In this document: piece by piece, positions 10,017 to 35,292 of the stretch
Layout: each line of letters opens with the position of its first letter
How positions within the stretch are numbered: position 1 is the stretch's first letter
IMG/VR virus record: IMGVR_UViG_3300033156_001223
Location: 105,842-142,619 of that record
Strand: one strand, 5' to 3'
DNA length: 36,778 nucleotides
From: a virus
The notes under the pieces: model-generated
Told to the model about the DNA's origin: nothing
What the model saw: only the letters and a program-made list of their open reading frames with translations
Databases searched by the model: none
Translations under genes and position numbers: made by a program

Positions 10017-10108
10017 CACCTAGTGGCGGAATTGGTAGACGCAATGGATTGGAAATCCATTGCGGGAATATCCCGCATGCGGGTTTGATTCCCACACCTA
10101 GGTGCCCA
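10017..10108 (+). tRNA. Class II tRNA, anticodon GGA (Ser), non-canonical acceptor/T-arm
   Basis: The D-arm GCGGAATTGGTAGACGC is typical of bacterial tRNA-Leu. The anticodon arm is ATGGA-TTGGAAA-TCCAT with anticodon GGA (serine). The long variable arm is GCGGG-AATAT-CCCGC. The T-loop reads TTTGATT, with T where C56 is nearly universal, and the T-stem GCGGG/CCCAC has one C-A mismatch. The acceptor CACCTAG/CTAGGTG pairs perfectly, is followed by C73 and an encoded CCA, and is separated from the T-stem by two extra bases; GGG/CCC outside it could extend the stem to 10 bp. It is a functional unusual tRNA or a degenerate one. Confidence 0.7.
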
Positions 10109-15207: not shown

Positions 15208-16659
15208 TTATTTTCCTATGTTTTTTTCTACGTGCCATCTTACAAATGCTGGTGCTCTTAATTTTCCTGGTTTGGAAGGATCCTCAGGATCAGGAAATAC
15301 TTCCAGACAAGAAATTTCTGCGATTTTTCCTTTATACTTATTCCAATTCTTGTAAATTTCCCTTCTCTGAGCATCAGTAAACCCAGTTCCTACATGAGTA
15401 ACCAATCTACCCCCTTCCGGGATTACTAATAATGCTCCGATAGCCTTTCCCTTTAGCCTACCTTTTCCTTCAGTATACCCAACCACTTTGCAGTCAATCG
15501 TAGGTCTAAACTTCACTTTAATAAATCTAGTAGGTAATCTTTCTGGATCATATAATACTACTCCTTCTTCGGTTAGTGGGTGTTTCTTCTCTTTGATTAA
15601 TTGATATATCTTTTCCTTTTGGGCAGGAGTTCTAGCTATTGGCATTAGTTTGATTTTTGGTATTTTCAGCTTTTTTACAATTTCCTTTAATAATTCATAT
15701 CTTTCCGAATAAGGAAGCTTATCTTCTACATCTTTTCCTTTATATCTTACTACATCAAAGATATAGTACTGGAAGTCGTAGCCTCTCTCTTTTTGAACTC
15801 TGCGGGCCTTCTCGGGAGAAGCATTCAGGATGCCGGAAATTATCCTAGCGGGTAAAAATTTTTTCTTCCCTCCTACTTTACGAAAACCAATTACTTCCCC
15901 TCTCAAGACCGTCCCAGCCAACTCCCTGGGAGGTTTTTTATAGGTAATCTGTGGGAATCTAGGAGTATACTCAATAGCACTTAATACTTCGTGTTCTGGA
16001 CGATGAGAAAACATCCTGAGTATCGGTTGCTTTGGTTCTATATGTAGAGTGGCAAAGGACCCATCTAATTTAGGCAGCAACCATTCTATTCCAGTAAACT
16101 GGATCTTATCTGGATCCCAGTTTACGAAACTAGGTTTTGCTGGTGGGATCTTTTTATCTCCATGCTTAGGAGTAGTGCACATTATAAGCCATTCTTTTCC
16201 TCTTATTTGCCTAAGTAGATATTCTCTTGGGAAGCGACGATGAAGAGTAACGAAACGAACCATATCAGGCCTTGCTTCCAACACTTCTATCCTACCTCTA
16301 TCCGCTTTCCTAACTGTCCCGGCTCCATATCCCGCCTTAATTTTTCCTGAAAAATCAAAGTAGTCTATGTCATGATCAAACGTACGGACAGCCAGTCTTT
16401 TCTGACCAGGATCTGGTAATCCCTTTCTTAATACCCATGAATATCCCTTGTTAGCTCTTAAATCTCCCAGCCTCAAGTCATAATGAGTGCCTCGTTTAGT
16501 AGTATGTTCGTGTAAGACATATTCCCACTCCTCTGGATTTTTAACTCTCCTGATCCTGGAAGTATTATCAGATGTGATTCCAATAGCCCTAGAAGCTATT
16601 TTTATAGGAAATTCCAGGGGACGGACACGGGCAATTCGCACCAAGCTACTGATCTCCAT
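15208..16659 (-). CDS. 3'-phosphoesterase / ATP-dependent DNA ligase fusion (LigD-like parts)
   Basis: 483 aa. The N-terminal domain (about 40-165) is a LigD-type 3'-phosphoesterase: H52, HYDLR (H59, D61, R63) and DH-x3-Y (H96, Y100) match the family's catalytic residues, and GYGAGTV follows. The ligase domain has motif I PKLDG (K197 adenylated), RGEVIGF (E255), EEGVVLY (364-370) and KVKF (K381, K383), then an OB-fold (VVGYTEGKGRLKG...). LigD polymerase is absent. The domain pair would heal 3' ends and then seal nicks. ATG 16659 lies 6 nt after a TATATT box, so the mRNA is likely leaderless. Confidence 0.88.
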   Translation of the reverse strand: MEISSLVRIARVRPLEFPIKIASRAIGITSDNTSRIRRVKNPEEWEYVLHEHTTKRGTHYDLRLGDLRANKGYSWVLRKGLPDPGQKRLAVRTFDHDIDYFDFSGKIKAGYGAGTVRKADRGRIEVLEARPDMVRFVTLHRRFPREYLLRQIRGKEWLIMCTTPKHGDKKIPPAKPSFVNWDPDKIQFTGIEWLLPKLDGSFATLHIEPKQPILRMFSHRPEHEVLSAIEYTPRFPQITYKKPPRELAGTVLRGEVIGFRKVGGKKKFLPARIISGILNASPEKARRVQKERGYDFQYYIFDVVRYKGKDVEDKLPYSERYELLKEIVKKLKIPKIKLMPIARTPAQKEKIYQLIKEKKHPLTEEGVVLYDPERLPTRFIKVKFRPTIDCKVVGYTEGKGRLKGKAIGALLVIPEGGRLVTHVGTGFTDAQRREIYKNWNKYKGKIAEISCLEVFPDPEDPSKPGKLRAPAFVRWHVEKNIGK

Positions 16660-24663: not shown

Positions 24664-24963
24664 TCAAGAATTGTCTTGCCCCTCAGTTTCTATCCAATCG
24701 ACCTCCACATCCCTCACACTAACTTCACATATGTCATCTATTTCCTCCCAATCTATATCTGTTGCTAAATCTACTGGGTCTTGCTCTAGACACTCACAGA
24801 CATAATCATATAAGGCCTCGTTATCTGTTACTATCGAACTAGGTACTGCTAAAGTAAGAGTCAGCCCCCCACGCAGAGTGGCATTAGCTACAAACTTTAC
24901 ATAAACTTCACATTGCAATATTTTATCATCTGTTTTCCGTCCATTGTGCTCTTCTACTTTCAT
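24664..24963 (-). CDS. Small paralogous family member A, unknown function
   Basis: 99 aa, the best-preserved member of a three-copy family (with 25938 and 26421). Shared pattern: a beta-rich N-terminal half (CEVYVKFVANATLRGGLTLTLAVP), then D-x-EALYDYV (about 55-61), then an acidic tail rich in Asp/Glu/Val. GGAG lies 9 nt before the ATG. The sequence looks small and soluble. Confidence 0.6.
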   Translation of the reverse strand: MKVEEHNGRKTDDKILQCEVYVKFVANATLRGGLTLTLAVPSSIVTDNEALYDYVCECLEQDPVDLATDIDWEEIDDICEVSVRDVEVDWIETEGQDNS

Positions 24964-25309: not shown

Positions 25310-25951
25310 CTACTCTACATTATGAGTAGACAAAATCTCGATCACATAAGGATCAGTCCAATCAATATCTACCAAACTATCTATCAACTCCTTTTCATCA
25401 TACTCATAAGTAGGATCGAGCCATAGTCTCCCATCAGATTGATAAAATTCCCAAGCAAATAGATGGCTCTGTACTATCGCCTTGTGGAGTAGCAGTTCTG
25501 GCATCCATTTATATGCTCGGCATACCAATCCATCTACATTCTGCTTCGGGCAGTAATCATATCCATAGACTATATGTCCAATTTCGAAGAGTAGCCCTCT
25601 ATAAACCCCTTCCCAGGTATTATCCAAACATAATGAAATTATTAGTCCATTAGTAGAAGATCTTTCACAATCTGTCAGAAACCTAATCTCTACTCCTCTC
25701 CACTCTAAAAATTCTCCCAAATAATTTCTAGTTATTACTTCATTTTTCAAAGCTTCCCCTTCTCGTAAAGAAAGTCCCTTGCTCCATCTTTTGGCAAAAA
25801 CTAATAATCCTTTACTATATCCACACTCAAAAGCATTTGCTGTTGGGCAATCAAAATCTCGCGGTATTACAAAACTGCCAATAATAAATATGAGGCTTAA
25901 CGCCGTAATTATACTTATTACTACTATAATCTTATAATCAGATGTCTTCAT
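25310..25951 (-). CDS. Membrane-anchored exported protein, unknown function
   Basis: 213 aa. A hydrophobic N-terminal segment (about 8-28) follows a short Lys-rich tail, giving an anchor or uncleaved signal. The outer domain holds about six cysteines and GLLFEIGHIVYGYDYC, which looks like a metallopeptidase helix but lacks the HExxH zinc motif. It overlaps the neighbour by 14 bp. Together with the lipoprotein at 24145 it suggests a surface-directed module. Confidence 0.55.
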   Translation of the reverse strand: MKTSDYKIIVVISIITALSLIFIIGSFVIPRDFDCPTANAFECGYSKGLLVFAKRWSKGLSLREGEALKNEVITRNYLGEFLEWRGVEIRFLTDCERSSTNGLIISLCLDNTWEGVYRGLLFEIGHIVYGYDYCPKQNVDGLVCRAYKWMPELLLHKAIVQSHLFAWEFYQSDGRLWLDPTYEYDEKELIDSLVDIDWTDPYVIEILSTHNVE

Positions 25952-26235
25952 CTTCTCCTCCCACTGGAGTTCCTAAAGCATCTTGATCTTCATCCCCAAT
26001 TTTCTCAATGTCAATTTCCTCCAAATCCCACTCAATCACCTCAGATAGCTGTATATCACACTCACTATCTAGTGCGTTATCAATCGCATAATCGCGTATG
26101 TAGTCATATAAAGCATCTCTATCTTGAACTACTGAACGTGGTACAGGGATATCGGTGGTTGTTTCTCCACACAAACTAGCCAAACCTGCGAAAAATAGAC
26201 GAACTTGGCATCTACCCTCACTAAATACCCCCCAT
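25938..26235 (-). pseudogene. Small paralogous family member B, start apparently out of frame
   Basis: The readable frame up to 26183 begins only at an internal TTG, yet the family pattern (CQVRLFFAGLASLCGE...) continues upstream of it. In that frame no ATG or GTG is found. An ATG at 26235 followed by six G would be in frame if the G run (26228-26233) had five bases, giving MGVFSEGRCQVRLFF. Shared D-x-DALYDYI and an acidic C-terminus match family member A. Either the base count is wrong in this assembly, the gene is broken, or expression uses frameshifting or a rare start. Confidence 0.5.
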
Positions 26236-26246
26236 TTAAAATGATA

Positions 26247-26320
26247 CAGGGGATTAGAAGATCTAATCCCCTGGAGTCAATAATCCTCGCCTTGATCTAA
26301 GCAAAGCGAGGGAGTCAATA
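26247..26320. repeat. Two tandem hairpins, each followed by GGAGTCAATA
   Basis: Hairpin 1 (26247-26273): CAGGGGATTAG-AAGAT-CTAATCCCCTG, a perfect 11-bp stem. Hairpin 2 (26285-26311): CCTCGC...GCGAGG with a 15-nt loop. Both are followed by GGAGTCAATA (26273-26282 and 26311-26320). They fill the gap between two paralogous genes. Neither has a T-tract, so simple terminators are unlikely. They could be protein-binding RNA or DNA sites. Confidence 0.75.
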
Positions 26321-26420
26321 CCTAATAATATTAATAGGCGAAATATACTTTGTAAACACCTTCACTCATCATCCCCTCTCCTTATTTATTTTTATGATTT
26401 TTACCTTTATAATCTCTTCC

Positions 26421-26678
26421 CTATTCAAGAATTTTAAACTCATCCAACTCAACCTCTTCAATACTATCAATTTCGTAAGTAACATCATACAACATATTCT
26501 CCAATTGTCTTTTTACATACTCCATCACAGCCTCATCATCCTCATCAATCGATATAGGAATAGAAACCATAAAAGTCTGTACAGCATATATCTTGGCTAC
26601 ACCACTAAAGTAACCACGAACAACACGAACAACTTCTTCTTCCTGTTCTTCTCTTCTACTTTCATAAATACACCCCAA
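26421..26678 (-). CDS. Small paralogous family member C, start uncertain
   Basis: 85 aa if TTG 26678 is used. Family features: a beta half (VVRVVRGYFSGVAKIYAVQTFMVSIP), D-x-EAVMEYV, and an acidic tail. A better-looking start, ATG 26665 with GGGGTG 5 nt upstream, opens MKVEEKNRKKK, which matches the first 15 bases of member A (MKVEE), but it is one base out of frame with the rest. Either the gene is shifted near the CTTCTTCTT run (26633-26643) or the TTG is used. Confidence 0.5.
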   Translation of the reverse strand: MGCIYESRREEQEEEVVRVVRGYFSGVAKIYAVQTFMVSIPISIDEDDEAVMEYVKRQLENMLYDVTYEIDSIEEVELDEFKILE

Positions 26679-26733
26679 TCTCGAATTCTTTTAAATCCAA
26701 AAAAATAATTTGGCCAGATCAGTAGAACAAGTT

Positions 26734-26761
26734 AAAAAAGGTGCGAAGGGCGCCCCGCACC
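26734..26761 (-). terminator. Terminator of the structured RNA
   Basis: On the minus strand GGTGCG...CGCACC (stem 26740-26745 with 26756-26761) followed by TTTTTT (26734-26739). Confidence 0.85.
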
Positions 26762-26925
26762 TGGGGAGAGCCGCCCAGAGTTACGCTCCTCCACCCCGTG
26801 CTGGGAGCGACCCAGCTCGAAGGGGCTTCGGAGTCTATCCCTGAGTACCGAGGGGATCTCACACAATCTTCCCCTATTTCGTGTAAGATCCGGCCGACCC
26901 TCGGCGGTTAACTTACCACGGCTCC
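26734..26925 (-). ncRNA. Structured non-coding RNA, not recognised
   Basis: A GC-rich island of about 190 nt in AT-rich DNA, read on the minus strand. Closing stem GAGCCG/CGGCUC (26919-26924 with 26768-26773). Hairpin A: CCGAGG, then GAUCUUACAC paired to GUGUGAGAUC, then CCUCGG (26899-26904 and 26881-26890 with 26855-26864 and 26848-26853). Hairpin B: CUCC, CCCC, GCUGGG-UCGCU-CCCAGC, GGGG, GGAG (26788-26833). An intrinsic terminator ends it (26734-26761) and an extended -10 starts it (26931). No ORF covers it. It does not match the motifs I know for tmRNA, RNase P, SRP or 6S RNA. Confidence 0.72.
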
Positions 26926-26930
26926 ATATA

Positions 26931-26939
26931 TTTATAACA
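26931..26939 (-). promoter_or_regulatory. Extended -10 promoter of the structured RNA
   Basis: The minus strand reads TGTTATAAA (TATAAA at 26931-26936), giving a start near 26924-26925, exactly at the first base of the closing stem. Only a weak -35 is visible. Confidence 0.6.
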
Positions 26940-26957
26940 TAATTCTAATAAAGAATT

Positions 26958-27437
26958 TCAGAAAGTATAACCAACTTTCGTAGCACTACGGCATATCATC
27001 TCAAGTAGCTTACGCTGTGGGTTTGGTAAGCCACAAAGGCAGGAAGGCAGGTAATGTTTGTGAGATCGGTTAGTTTTGATAGCAAAATATTTCTGGAAAT
27101 TAGTATCCTCCATCCTTACTCCCACTACTCGACAAAATTCCTCAAACTTCTCCGGGTAGCTACTAATATCTTCAATACGAAACCAAGCCTCACAAGTCTT
27201 AAGAGCTTTGCTTACTAAAAATTCCACCCAATCATAGCCATAGGAGGGTAAGTTTGGATGTAACTGGGAAGTAGTTGCATATAAAGGAGTGCCATAAAGA
27301 GAATTAATTGTTCGATAGGGATGCCGAACAACCAACACCCCAATAGGATTGCTACCAGGTTCCAATATTCGGCATGGTATTTGGGTAAGCACTTTGGTTA
27401 GCCAACTTGCTCCCCCTTTTGGTAAACACCAAAGCAT
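26958..27437 (-). CDS. Sulfotransferase-like protein (short)
   Basis: 159 aa, GAGGAG site 7 nt before ATG. PKGGASWLTKVL (about 6-17) resembles the PAPS 5'-phosphosulfate loop PKSGTTWL, and VVRHPYRTINSLY (about 36-48) resembles the 3'-phosphate site RxPxxxxxSxY. The sulfotransferase family transfers sulfate from PAPS to sugars, proteins or lipids. It is shorter than typical (240-300 aa) and the Gly-Thr of the loop is replaced by Gly-Ala, so activity is not certain. It starts just upstream of the structured RNA. Confidence 0.65.
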   Translation of the reverse strand: MLWCLPKGGASWLTKVLTQIPCRILEPGSNPIGVLVVRHPYRTINSLYGTPLYATTSQLHPNLPSYGYDWVEFLVSKALKTCEAWFRIEDISSYPEKFEEFCRVVGVRMEDTNFQKYFAIKTNRSHKHYLPSCLCGLPNPQRKLLEMICRSATKVGYTF

Positions 27438-27441
27438 TTAG

Positions 27442-27747
27442 TTACTCCTCTTTATGTTTTGACCAATTAAACTCCTGCCTTGGTTTCGTTAAATCGTACA
27501 CTTTACAAGAAATTGAGTCGAGTACATCAGAATAACTCTCTGTTATGTGAGATAAATCCAACTCGAATTTATCTGCATTATACGGCCAGATCGTCTCGCA
27601 GACCCAATGGCTGTTATCATAGCATCTAAAAACTCGGCCGAAAATTTCTGACATCTTTGTCAATACTCGTGCTTGCTTATCTAGATCTTTAGAATCTTCT
27701 GGTGGAGAGAATATAATACTACAGCGTACAAATACTTCTTGTGCCAT
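27442..27747 (-). CDS. Small tandem paralog 1, unknown function
   Basis: 101 aa with AGGAGG 6 nt upstream. It is homologous to the next gene upstream (28077): both read EvFVrC-Ii-F--P-dS-DL--Q...L near the start and YsDVL--i-Ck-YDL--P---W in the last quarter. Both are small, soluble and of unknown function. They lie between two sulfotransferase-like genes. Confidence 0.6.
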   Translation of the reverse strand: MAQEVFVRCSIIFSPPEDSKDLDKQARVLTKMSEIFGRVFRCYDNSHWVCETIWPYNADKFELDLSHITESYSDVLDSISCKVYDLTKPRQEFNWSKHKEE

Positions 27748-27768: not shown

Positions 27769-28077
27769 CTAATCAGCTGACCAGTCATACACCCAATCTG
27801 GGACGACAAGGTCATACATACGACATTTCACAAATCTTAACACATCATTATAATTCTCAACCAAACTTTCAATCGACCTTTTTAATTGGGTTCTATCTCT
27901 TTTCACAAGCGCCTTTAGTTCCCAGCAATACTCAATTTCATGAATTGCAGAATCATTAAACAACTCTTCCAATGCCTTCAAGAACTCTACTTGTGACTCC
28001 AAATCATTAGAATCTTTTGGCAATTGGAATTCTATTATACAATGAACAAAAATTTCCTCACTCTTTCCTTTACTCAT
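27769..28077 (-). CDS. Small tandem paralog 2, unknown function
   Basis: 102 aa, AAAGGAG 6 nt upstream. Partner of the 27442 gene by shared sequence (IFVHCIIEFQLPKDSNDLE at about 9-27, YNDVLRFVKCRMYDLVVP at about 77-94). A recent tandem duplication followed by divergence is the simplest explanation. Overlaps the upstream gene's end by 8 bp. Confidence 0.6.
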   Translation of the reverse strand: MSKGKSEEIFVHCIIEFQLPKDSNDLESQVEFLKALEELFNDSAIHEIEYCWELKALVKRDRTQLKRSIESLVENYNDVLRFVKCRMYDLVVPDWVYDWSAD

Positions 28078-33429: not shown

Positions 33430-33972
33430 CTACTCACATATATATCTAGATAACTCCTCCTCTATAATTCTAATAGCATTTTTCTTTAATCTTAATCTCA
33501 GCTCAATCCCCAAATCATCTATAGGTATTCTCGACCAACATTTTGGGCACATGAGTGAAGACATACATATATAGCCTCCTTTTCTTCCCTTAAAATCTTT
33601 AGATATACCTATCGTCTCAATTACTGATCCTCTTAAGAATATGAGGGAAATCTCATCCAACTTCAAAACTTCTCCGCACTCGTGGCATCTAATATTTCCT
33701 TCCTCATCAACCATTTCTTTCTCCAACTTCTCTCTCAGAACACTAATATCATCTTCAACATAACCTATAACTTCTTCCAAGTTCTCTATATCAATACCAT
33801 CAGACAAATATTTCTCACAATTTGGGCATTGTAAATTAATTGATAGGTGTGGGGGATAGAAGTCTTGCATAAGATTATCTATTTTACCATCTGTGAATTG
33901 ACTGAAACACGTTACTACCGTAACATCATTTATTTCAAATTCTACGTGACATTTTGGGCACCTATATTTCAT
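33430..33972 (-). CDS. Large zinc-ribbon protein with two or three ribbons
   Basis: 180 aa. Begins MKYRCPKCHVEFEINDVTVV, like the 34986 paralog (MKYKCPQCGEDFEIKDVEL). CPKC/CPNC (4-7 and about 48-51), CHEC (about 96-99) and a final CPKC (about 138-141) give several ribbons. It starts after a GGAGG site 11 nt from the ATG. Part of the zinc-ribbon family that runs to 35292. Confidence 0.6.
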   Translation of the reverse strand: MKYRCPKCHVEFEINDVTVVTCFSQFTDGKIDNLMQDFYPPHLSINLQCPNCEKYLSDGIDIENLEEVIGYVEDDISVLREKLEKEMVDEEGNIRCHECGEVLKLDEISLIFLRGSVIETIGISKDFKGRKGGYICMSSLMCPKCWSRIPIDDLGIELRLRLKKNAIRIIEEELSRYICE

Positions 33973-34701: not shown

Positions 34702-34986
34702 TTAAGAGTTATTATTTGTAGAGAGTTTTTCCAATAGTTTCTGGAGCAACTTATTAATAGCTTCCTGACTGATATTAATGTTCTGTGGTAAATTTCCCAA
34801 ACTTACTTCATCCTCAAGTAGTGGTTCATTACAATTAGGACAAGCCAAAATTGCCAAGCATTCTACTGGATATACTTCCTGGATAGGCTTTTGTAAATTG
34901 CCCCAAAAAGGGAGCAGAAATCCTCCCCGTAACTCAACATCCTTAATTTCAAAATCTTCCCCACATTGTGGACACTTATACTTCAT
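34702..34986 (-). CDS. Zinc-ribbon protein, paralog of 34999 and 33430
   Basis: 94 aa, AGGGGGA site 6 nt upstream. CPQC (about 5-8) and CPNC (about 49-52). The rest resembles the 34999 gene: GGFLLPFWGNLQKPIQEVYPVECLAIL here against GAFVLQFVGGLSKPVEQTQPVWCFITL there, with the same helical end (INKLLQKLLEKL). Confidence 0.62.
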   Translation of the reverse strand: MKYKCPQCGEDFEIKDVELRGGFLLPFWGNLQKPIQEVYPVECLAILACPNCNEPLLEDEVSLGNLPQNINISQEAINKLLQKLLEKLSTNNNS

Positions 34987-34998
34987 TACTGTTCCCCC

Positions 34999-35292
34999 TT
35001 AACCAATAATTCCGCAATTCTTCCCACTGATAAACTTTTCTAGTAGCTTCTGTTGGAGAGCATCTACAGCATCCTGCCCCACACTAAAACTTTCAGAAAC
35101 ATCATCCATATCTATCTCTTCATCTAATACCTTTTCACCACAATTAGGACATATAAGAGTTATGAAGCACCAAACTGGTTGGGTTTGCTCGACAGGTTTT
35201 GACAGTCCACCTACAAACTGAAGTACAAAGGCTCCTTCTAATTTAACCACATCACTTGTTACTCTCTTTTTACATCTTGGACATTCAAGCAT
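34999..35292 (-). CDS. Zinc-ribbon protein, paralog of 34702
   Basis: 97 aa. CPRC (4-7) and CPNC (about 49-52), same domain plan as 34702. Its start lies inside the end of the 306-aa gene (8-bp overlap), so the two are coupled. The pair [306-aa gene + this ribbon] and the pair [ribbon + split gene] suggest a duplicated cassette. Confidence 0.62.
   Translation of the reverse strand: MLECPRCKKRVTSDVVKLEGAFVLQFVGGLSKPVEQTQPVWCFITLICPNCGEKVLDEEIDMDDVSESFSVGQDAVDALQQKLLEKFISGKNCGIIG

Follow-up and report, generated by a model that had tools for sequence, protein, structure and literature searches.

A candidate structured non-coding RNA gene with a predicted four-way junction in a 142.6-kb phage contig

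The 6S RNA is about 190 nt long and acts by binding a protein; its fold is a single extended rod interrupted by a central bubble, and a closing stem seals its ends. Among phages, characterised non-coding RNAs are few. Phage-encoded non-coding RNAs of 100-180 nt were detected during PhiKZ infection (PMC8545117). The candidates are an RNA of about 100 nt in the 3′-UTR of PHIKZ298 and an RNA of about 180 nt in the 5′-UTR of p40, and the latter is structured, with a terminating second stem (PMC8545117). The leader type is thus represented by one of these two RNAs. The wcaG and manA leader RNAs are found in cyanophages near polysaccharide genes (PMC2864571). ROOL carries predicted pseudoknots, and GOLLD and ROOL often lie near tRNA islands (PMC12286853).

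Here, we describe a locus in a 142.6-kb phage contig of 38% G+C, the final 36.8 kb of which form the window, that is, the whole stretch of DNA analysed (36,778 nt). A candidate RNA gene of 192 nt and 62% G+C was read directly from the minus strand at window positions 26734-26925. The locus is characterised below by its sequence, its composition, the stability of its fold, and the promoter-like and terminator signals at its ends. Judged from the sequence, the feature appears to be real and makes a promising candidate for a novel viral RNA with a regulatory or structural role. The predicted RNA would be discrete and very stable; it has sharp predicted ends and lies in a deeply unexplored phage lineage, and it is a cheap and directly testable target.

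Composition, boundaries and neighbours of the locus

A scan of the whole contig (mean G+C 0.383, sd 0.041) placed the 150-nt maximum, 0.64, at the RNA locus. The peak is more than 6 sd above the mean and is the strongest G+C deviation in the contig, which agrees with the original prediction that the DNA here is richer in G+C than its surroundings. The tRNA-Gln of the phage is likewise G+C-rich (58%), and, judged from these two genes, the structured RNAs of this phage may be G+C-rich in general.

A stand-alone sRNA gene should have its own promoter and its own intrinsic terminator, and it should not be translated. On the minus strand, the order of the signals is as follows: the stop codon of the upstream gene (26958), the extended -10 element TGTTATAAA (26931-26939), the predicted start (26924-26925), the RNA down to 26734, and an ATG (26663-26665). 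The RNA begins 32 nt past the upstream stop codon, and its terminator ends 68 nt ahead of the downstream ATG. The closest plausible start coincides, give or take one base, with the first nucleotide of the closing stem (GGAGCCG); both this coincidence and the extended -10 element had been predicted, and both were found. As regards an own promoter, the extended -10 is correctly placed, but no -35 box is recognisable and no 9-of-12 sigma-70 site occurs at the locus, so that the extended -10 is the single element from which the putative promoter is called. The pattern TGNTATAAA/T (TGNTATAAW) occurs 9 times in the intergenic DNA, as compared with about 2.7 times in shuffles; genome-wide, it shows no excess over the reversed pattern (26 vs. 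28). At the other end, a terminator search and the fold both yielded an intrinsic terminator on the minus strand at 26734-26762, composed of a 10-bp stem, a 4-nt loop and a T run (AGGTGCGGGG-CGCC-CTTCGCACCT followed by the T run). It is the sole terminator-like site within 26300-27100, where shuffles average 0.7, and it is the strong terminator that had been anticipated. The transcript ends predicted independently by the promoter and the terminator coincide with the closing stem.

The gene adjacent on the upstream side (26958-27437, minus strand) had been described as sulfotransferase-like, a label that found no backing: neither Pfam nor PHROG gave a match for it. The downstream gene (26421-26678, minus strand) does belong to a set of three small paralogs, as predicted; its likely start is the ATG at 26663-26665, which lies in another frame (MKVEEKNRKKK...) and is accompanied by a GGGGTG ribosome-binding-like site. 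The flanking genes on either side share the direction of the RNA, and a glycosyltransferase gene and sugar genes are found nearby.

The small genes around the RNA show two features of their own. One is that the minus-strand genes 26421-26678 and 25938-26183 look frame-shifted relative to the intact paralog 24664-24963: in the former, MKVEEKNRKKK is in one frame and the remainder in another, and a comparable break exists in the latter. These apparent breaks represent programmed frameshifting, decay or assembly error. Another is that small paralogs form several families here (24664-24963, 25938-26183 and 26421-26678; 27442-27747 and 27769-28077; 33430-33972, 34702-34986 and 34999-35292), which suggests repeated local duplication.

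No terminator-like site was found in the interval from the upstream stop codon to the putative promoter. This, together with the common strand and the short distance from the stop codon, would fit a 3′-UTR or terminator region of the upstream operon, i.e., a structured end that protects the mRNA and is possibly processed to a stable fragment, for which the RNA in the 3′-UTR of PHIKZ298 is a precedent (PMC8545117). However, the extended -10 lies exactly where the 5′ end of the closing stem requires it, and a 160-nt domain ahead of the terminator far exceeds what a 3′ end needs. We regard this explanation as improbable.

As for translation, the original prediction stated that no reading frame covers the locus. 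This is not the case: on the sense strand, a single frame runs open through the entire RNA, and the opposite strand has two frames that are open over most or all of its length, among them a GTG ORF of 56 aa. Nevertheless, equally long stop-free runs arise in 61% of the shuffles of this G+C-rich sequence. The terminator falls inside the open frames, no convincing start signals accompany the frames over the RNA, and the two frame products tested against Pfam gave no match. With open frames at the chance level for the G+C content, weak starts and no Pfam match, a coding gene was ruled out, and the RNA is, as judged from sequence, not translated.

Predicted fold and its stability

The predicted structure of the RNA is a well-defined four-way junction with an MFE of -93.9 kcal/mol, a mean pair probability of 0.96 and an ensemble diversity of 7.8. 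The junction is closed by P1, a 7-bp stem formed by GGAGCCG (RNA 1-7, window 26919-26925) and CGGCTCT (RNA 153-159, window 26767-26773) with pair probabilities of 0.69-1.0, and it is completed by three further elements on the same minus strand. P2 is a small 3-bp hairpin (RNA 9-20, window 26906-26917; pair probabilities 0.93-0.99). P3 is a long hairpin of 8 + 12 bp with a 7-nt asymmetric bulge (RNA 21-79, window 26847-26905), whose distal 12-bp helix has pair probabilities of 0.88-1.0 and whose 12-nt loop, AAUAGGGGAAGA, is purine-rich. P4 is a long hairpin interrupted by several internal loops (RNA 81-152, window 26774-26845). The two long hairpins that had been claimed thus exist as P3 and P4, but neither is branched, and the RNA as a whole is a four-way junction. 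A single-stranded CCCC linker (RNA 160-163, window 26763-26766) follows P1; as read directly from its complementarity, it could form a pseudoknot with the GGGG of the P3 loop or pair with the 5′ arm of the terminator. Unpaired bases are few, being located mainly in the P3 loop, the internal loops of P4 and the linker. In silico, the fold was kept at 55 °C, and at 70 °C it was kept except for P2, which was gone from the MFE structure.

Compared with 1000 dinucleotide shuffles, the full RNA gave a z-score of -3.57 (2 of the 1000 were equally stable), and the body without the terminator gave -3.61 (none of the 1000). The complement of the body, i.e., the opposite strand, gave -1.9. A second test with 200 shuffles agreed that the stability is beyond chance. 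The locus also has the lowest energy per base (-0.44 kcal/mol/nt) among the 104 intergenic segments of the contig. The z-score itself is good, not extraordinary, and lower values occur elsewhere in the contig: -6.3 for a class II tRNA-like gene and -9.7 for one coding sequence. The RNA stands out because three properties come together in it: its G+C content, one structure that dominates the ensemble, and start and stop signals located at its two ends.

The coding sequence with the lower z-score is a 118-aa ORF on the minus strand at contig positions 79560-79916 (L059:19560-19916). The predicted fold of its mRNA (451 nt, -187 kcal/mol, z -9.7) strings long hairpins together and makes this one of the most highly structured parts of the phage. 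The ORF nevertheless looks coding and has a good ribosome-binding site; it has no Pfam match.

These values also bear on the view that the G+C-rich locus is a foreign island, or a chance structure, devoid of RNA function. No conservation has been shown, and G+C by itself favours stable folds. Nevertheless, the fold beats composition-matched shuffles on one strand only, and the start and stop signals flank the RNA precisely, so that we consider this view very improbable.

The main rival explanation takes the RNA to be a structured 5′ leader that controls the small gene 26421-26665 by transcription attenuation, in the manner of a riboswitch or in response to a protein; the terminated RNA would then be the product of the off state. 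Its position speaks for it, since a structured domain and a terminator are followed, after 68 nt, by an ATG with its GGGGTG site; the structured 180-nt 5′-UTR RNA of PhiKZ with its terminating second stem is a precedent (PMC8545117), as are the cyanophage wcaG and manA leaders (PMC2864571), given the glycosyltransferase and sugar genes nearby. Its energetics speak against it. An attenuator or riboswitch has a mutually exclusive terminator and antiterminator, whereas here P1 does not overlap the terminator, and the terminator and the body coexist; blocking the terminator leaves only the CCCC/GGGG pairing and, in the energy model, costs 8.3 kcal/mol. In addition, the Rfam models of wcaG, manA and all riboswitches were unmatched, and the gene downstream is small and accessory and is apparently frame-shifted relative to its paralog. 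On balance, we judge the leader explanation to be rather unlikely, although less so than the 3′-UTR explanation. Both have a precedent, since the PhiKZ study detected an RNA of either UTR type (PMC8545117).

Known RNA classes and the search for relatives

No match at the gathering score was obtained with the covariance models of Rfam 15 (6S, SRP, RNase P, tmRNA, GOLLD, ROOL, HEARO, riboswitches and others), in line with the original prediction, which had recognised no common RNA class. At E ≤ 10, the only match was the mir-1249 microRNA model, which is irrelevant (17.3 bits against a cut-off of 83). The RNA therefore appears to be a new, unplaced, phage-encoded structured non-coding RNA outside all Rfam families at curated thresholds.

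Several specific candidates were also rejected. ARAGORN reported no tRNA or tmRNA at the locus. A retron or DGR RNA was rejected, since the PF00078 reverse transcriptase is absent from the 142.6-kb contig, which is possibly incomplete, while the controls were positive. A TnpB omega RNA is expected at the 3′ end of tnpB, overlapping or following it, with a guide as its last part; here, about 79 kb separate the RNA from the TnpB gene, the RNA ends in a terminator, and nothing similar to it occurs elsewhere in the contig.

Other genes of these kinds were noted in the phage. A class II tRNA-like gene, not reported by ARAGORN, is found on the plus strand at window 10019-10103 (Rfam tRNA, 31.5 bits) and has, as seen by eye, a long anticodon stem and the loop TTGGAAA. 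The TnpB gene, of the IS605 type, is on the minus strand at contig positions 52480-53682 (L058:12480-13682); it has the Pfam OrfB_IS605 and TNB domains and, by eye, a typical TnpB end sequence at its 3′ end. Among the proteins scanned, the PADLOC Cas12f models gave matches with E-values as low as 9e-61. One phage protein matched PADLOC PDLC01039 'Csx1 (found elsewhere)' (E 9e-51), a match that was absent among ten re-scanned proteins. The minus-strand gene at window 15208-16659 encodes an ATP-dependent DNA ligase fused to a LigD 3′-phosphoesterase domain, to our knowledge an unusual arrangement in a phage.

No homolog of the RNA was found in the IMG/VR k-mer, phage and plasmid, terminase-relative and bacterial-genome searches, and no copy exists elsewhere in the contig. 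Blastn against phages and plasmids gave chance matches only, and no exact 20-mer of the RNA occurs in the IMG/VR and GTDB contigs. Three 14-15-mers had 46, 98 and 68 matches in IMG/VR; those tested with a covariance model built from the single sequence (R1), which reaches only fairly close relatives, were unconvincing, and 18 of the k-mer loci (L168-L185) were compared by blastn/nhmmer only. Two R1 matches were judged to be chance: L223 (13.5 bits) and L256 (27.8 bits, E 0.002 per genome, 399 genomes), where the G+C-rich terminator carries most of the match. The 103 Thermotogota genomes and the 399 genomes of the Caloramator phylum yielded no homolog, and scans with the neighbouring proteins yielded no relatives. 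The only near-identical contig (L048; terminase identity 100%) covers the window to about 23.4 kb, short of the RNA. The next relatives have terminase identities of 37-40%, and just four window proteins have counterparts in them, all in the first 7 kb; the RNA thus sits in a region that is not common to the terminase relatives, and it is absent from their whole records. Because the searches were limited and R1 derives from one sequence, these results are weak evidence of absence.

Weak hints point to a possibly warm habitat of the phage. The best genome matches of its TnpB (about 50%) are from Caloramator and Thermotogaceae, and the first-ranked match of its ribonucleotide reductase among phages is from a Moorella phage (44% over 70% of the query).

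Proposed mode of action and comparison with known RNAs

The explanation that we favour, with somewhat more confidence than doubt, is a stand-alone phage non-coding RNA gene acting through the folded shape of its product; sequence, composition and folding give good support to its structured, phage-encoded nature, as originally predicted, whereas the trans-acting or structural role also proposed there is conjectural. In its favour are the G+C peak, unique in the contig and paralleled by tRNA-Gln, a stable fold with one state that is confined to a single strand (z -3.6 vs. -1.9), predicted transcript ends that coincide with the closing stem, the absence of a coding signal, the lack of a good antiterminator, unlike a typical riboswitch, and the precedent of the PhiKZ RNAs. 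Against it are the lack of a homolog, and hence of covariation, the lack of a clear -35, and the 68 nt from the terminator to the start codon, a distance equally compatible with a leader.

For such a gene, we infer discrete transcription, an action in trans and a partner, as follows. The RNA polymerase of the host, possibly modified by the phage, would initiate at the extended -10, and transcription would yield the 192-nt RNA and halt at the hairpin terminator. P1 would seal the ends of the RNA, and P2, P3 and P4 would pack into a compact four-way junction shielded against exonucleases. During infection, the RNA would most likely act in trans, with a protein or RNP of the host or the phage as its binding partner. 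Since its ends are sealed, its fold is single-state and single-stranded bases are scarce, a shape-based action, probably protein binding, is favoured over long (antisense) base pairing. A tentative extension, which we hold to be possible and no more probable than that, is that the RNA founds a new class of phage structural RNAs whose compact four-way junction captures a host or phage protein as a decoy or scaffold. Class-founding status depends on homologs, and the value of the RNA hinges on relatives or a transcript; a single orphan would be one strong candidate more on a growing list.

Among the known systems, the PhiKZ candidates resemble the RNA described here in being structured, intergenic RNAs of similar length in a large phage, with a terminator-like stem at the end (PMC8545117). 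They differ in that they were seen experimentally, derive from mRNA UTRs and have simple two-stem folds as described (PMC8545117), whereas the present RNA is predicted from sequence, with a four-way junction and its own promoter-like element. GOLLD and ROOL are, like it, phage-encoded, with elaborate folds and unknown function, but they are much larger, many GOLLD RNAs exceeding 800 nt (PMC12286853). The wcaG and manA RNAs are likewise phage structured RNAs in exopolysaccharide-gene regions (PMC2864571); here, however, there is no Rfam match, and the downstream gene is not a sugar gene. Finally, the 6S RNA is alike in length and in its closing stem, while the RNA of this phage forms a four-way junction and leaves the Rfam 6S model unmatched.
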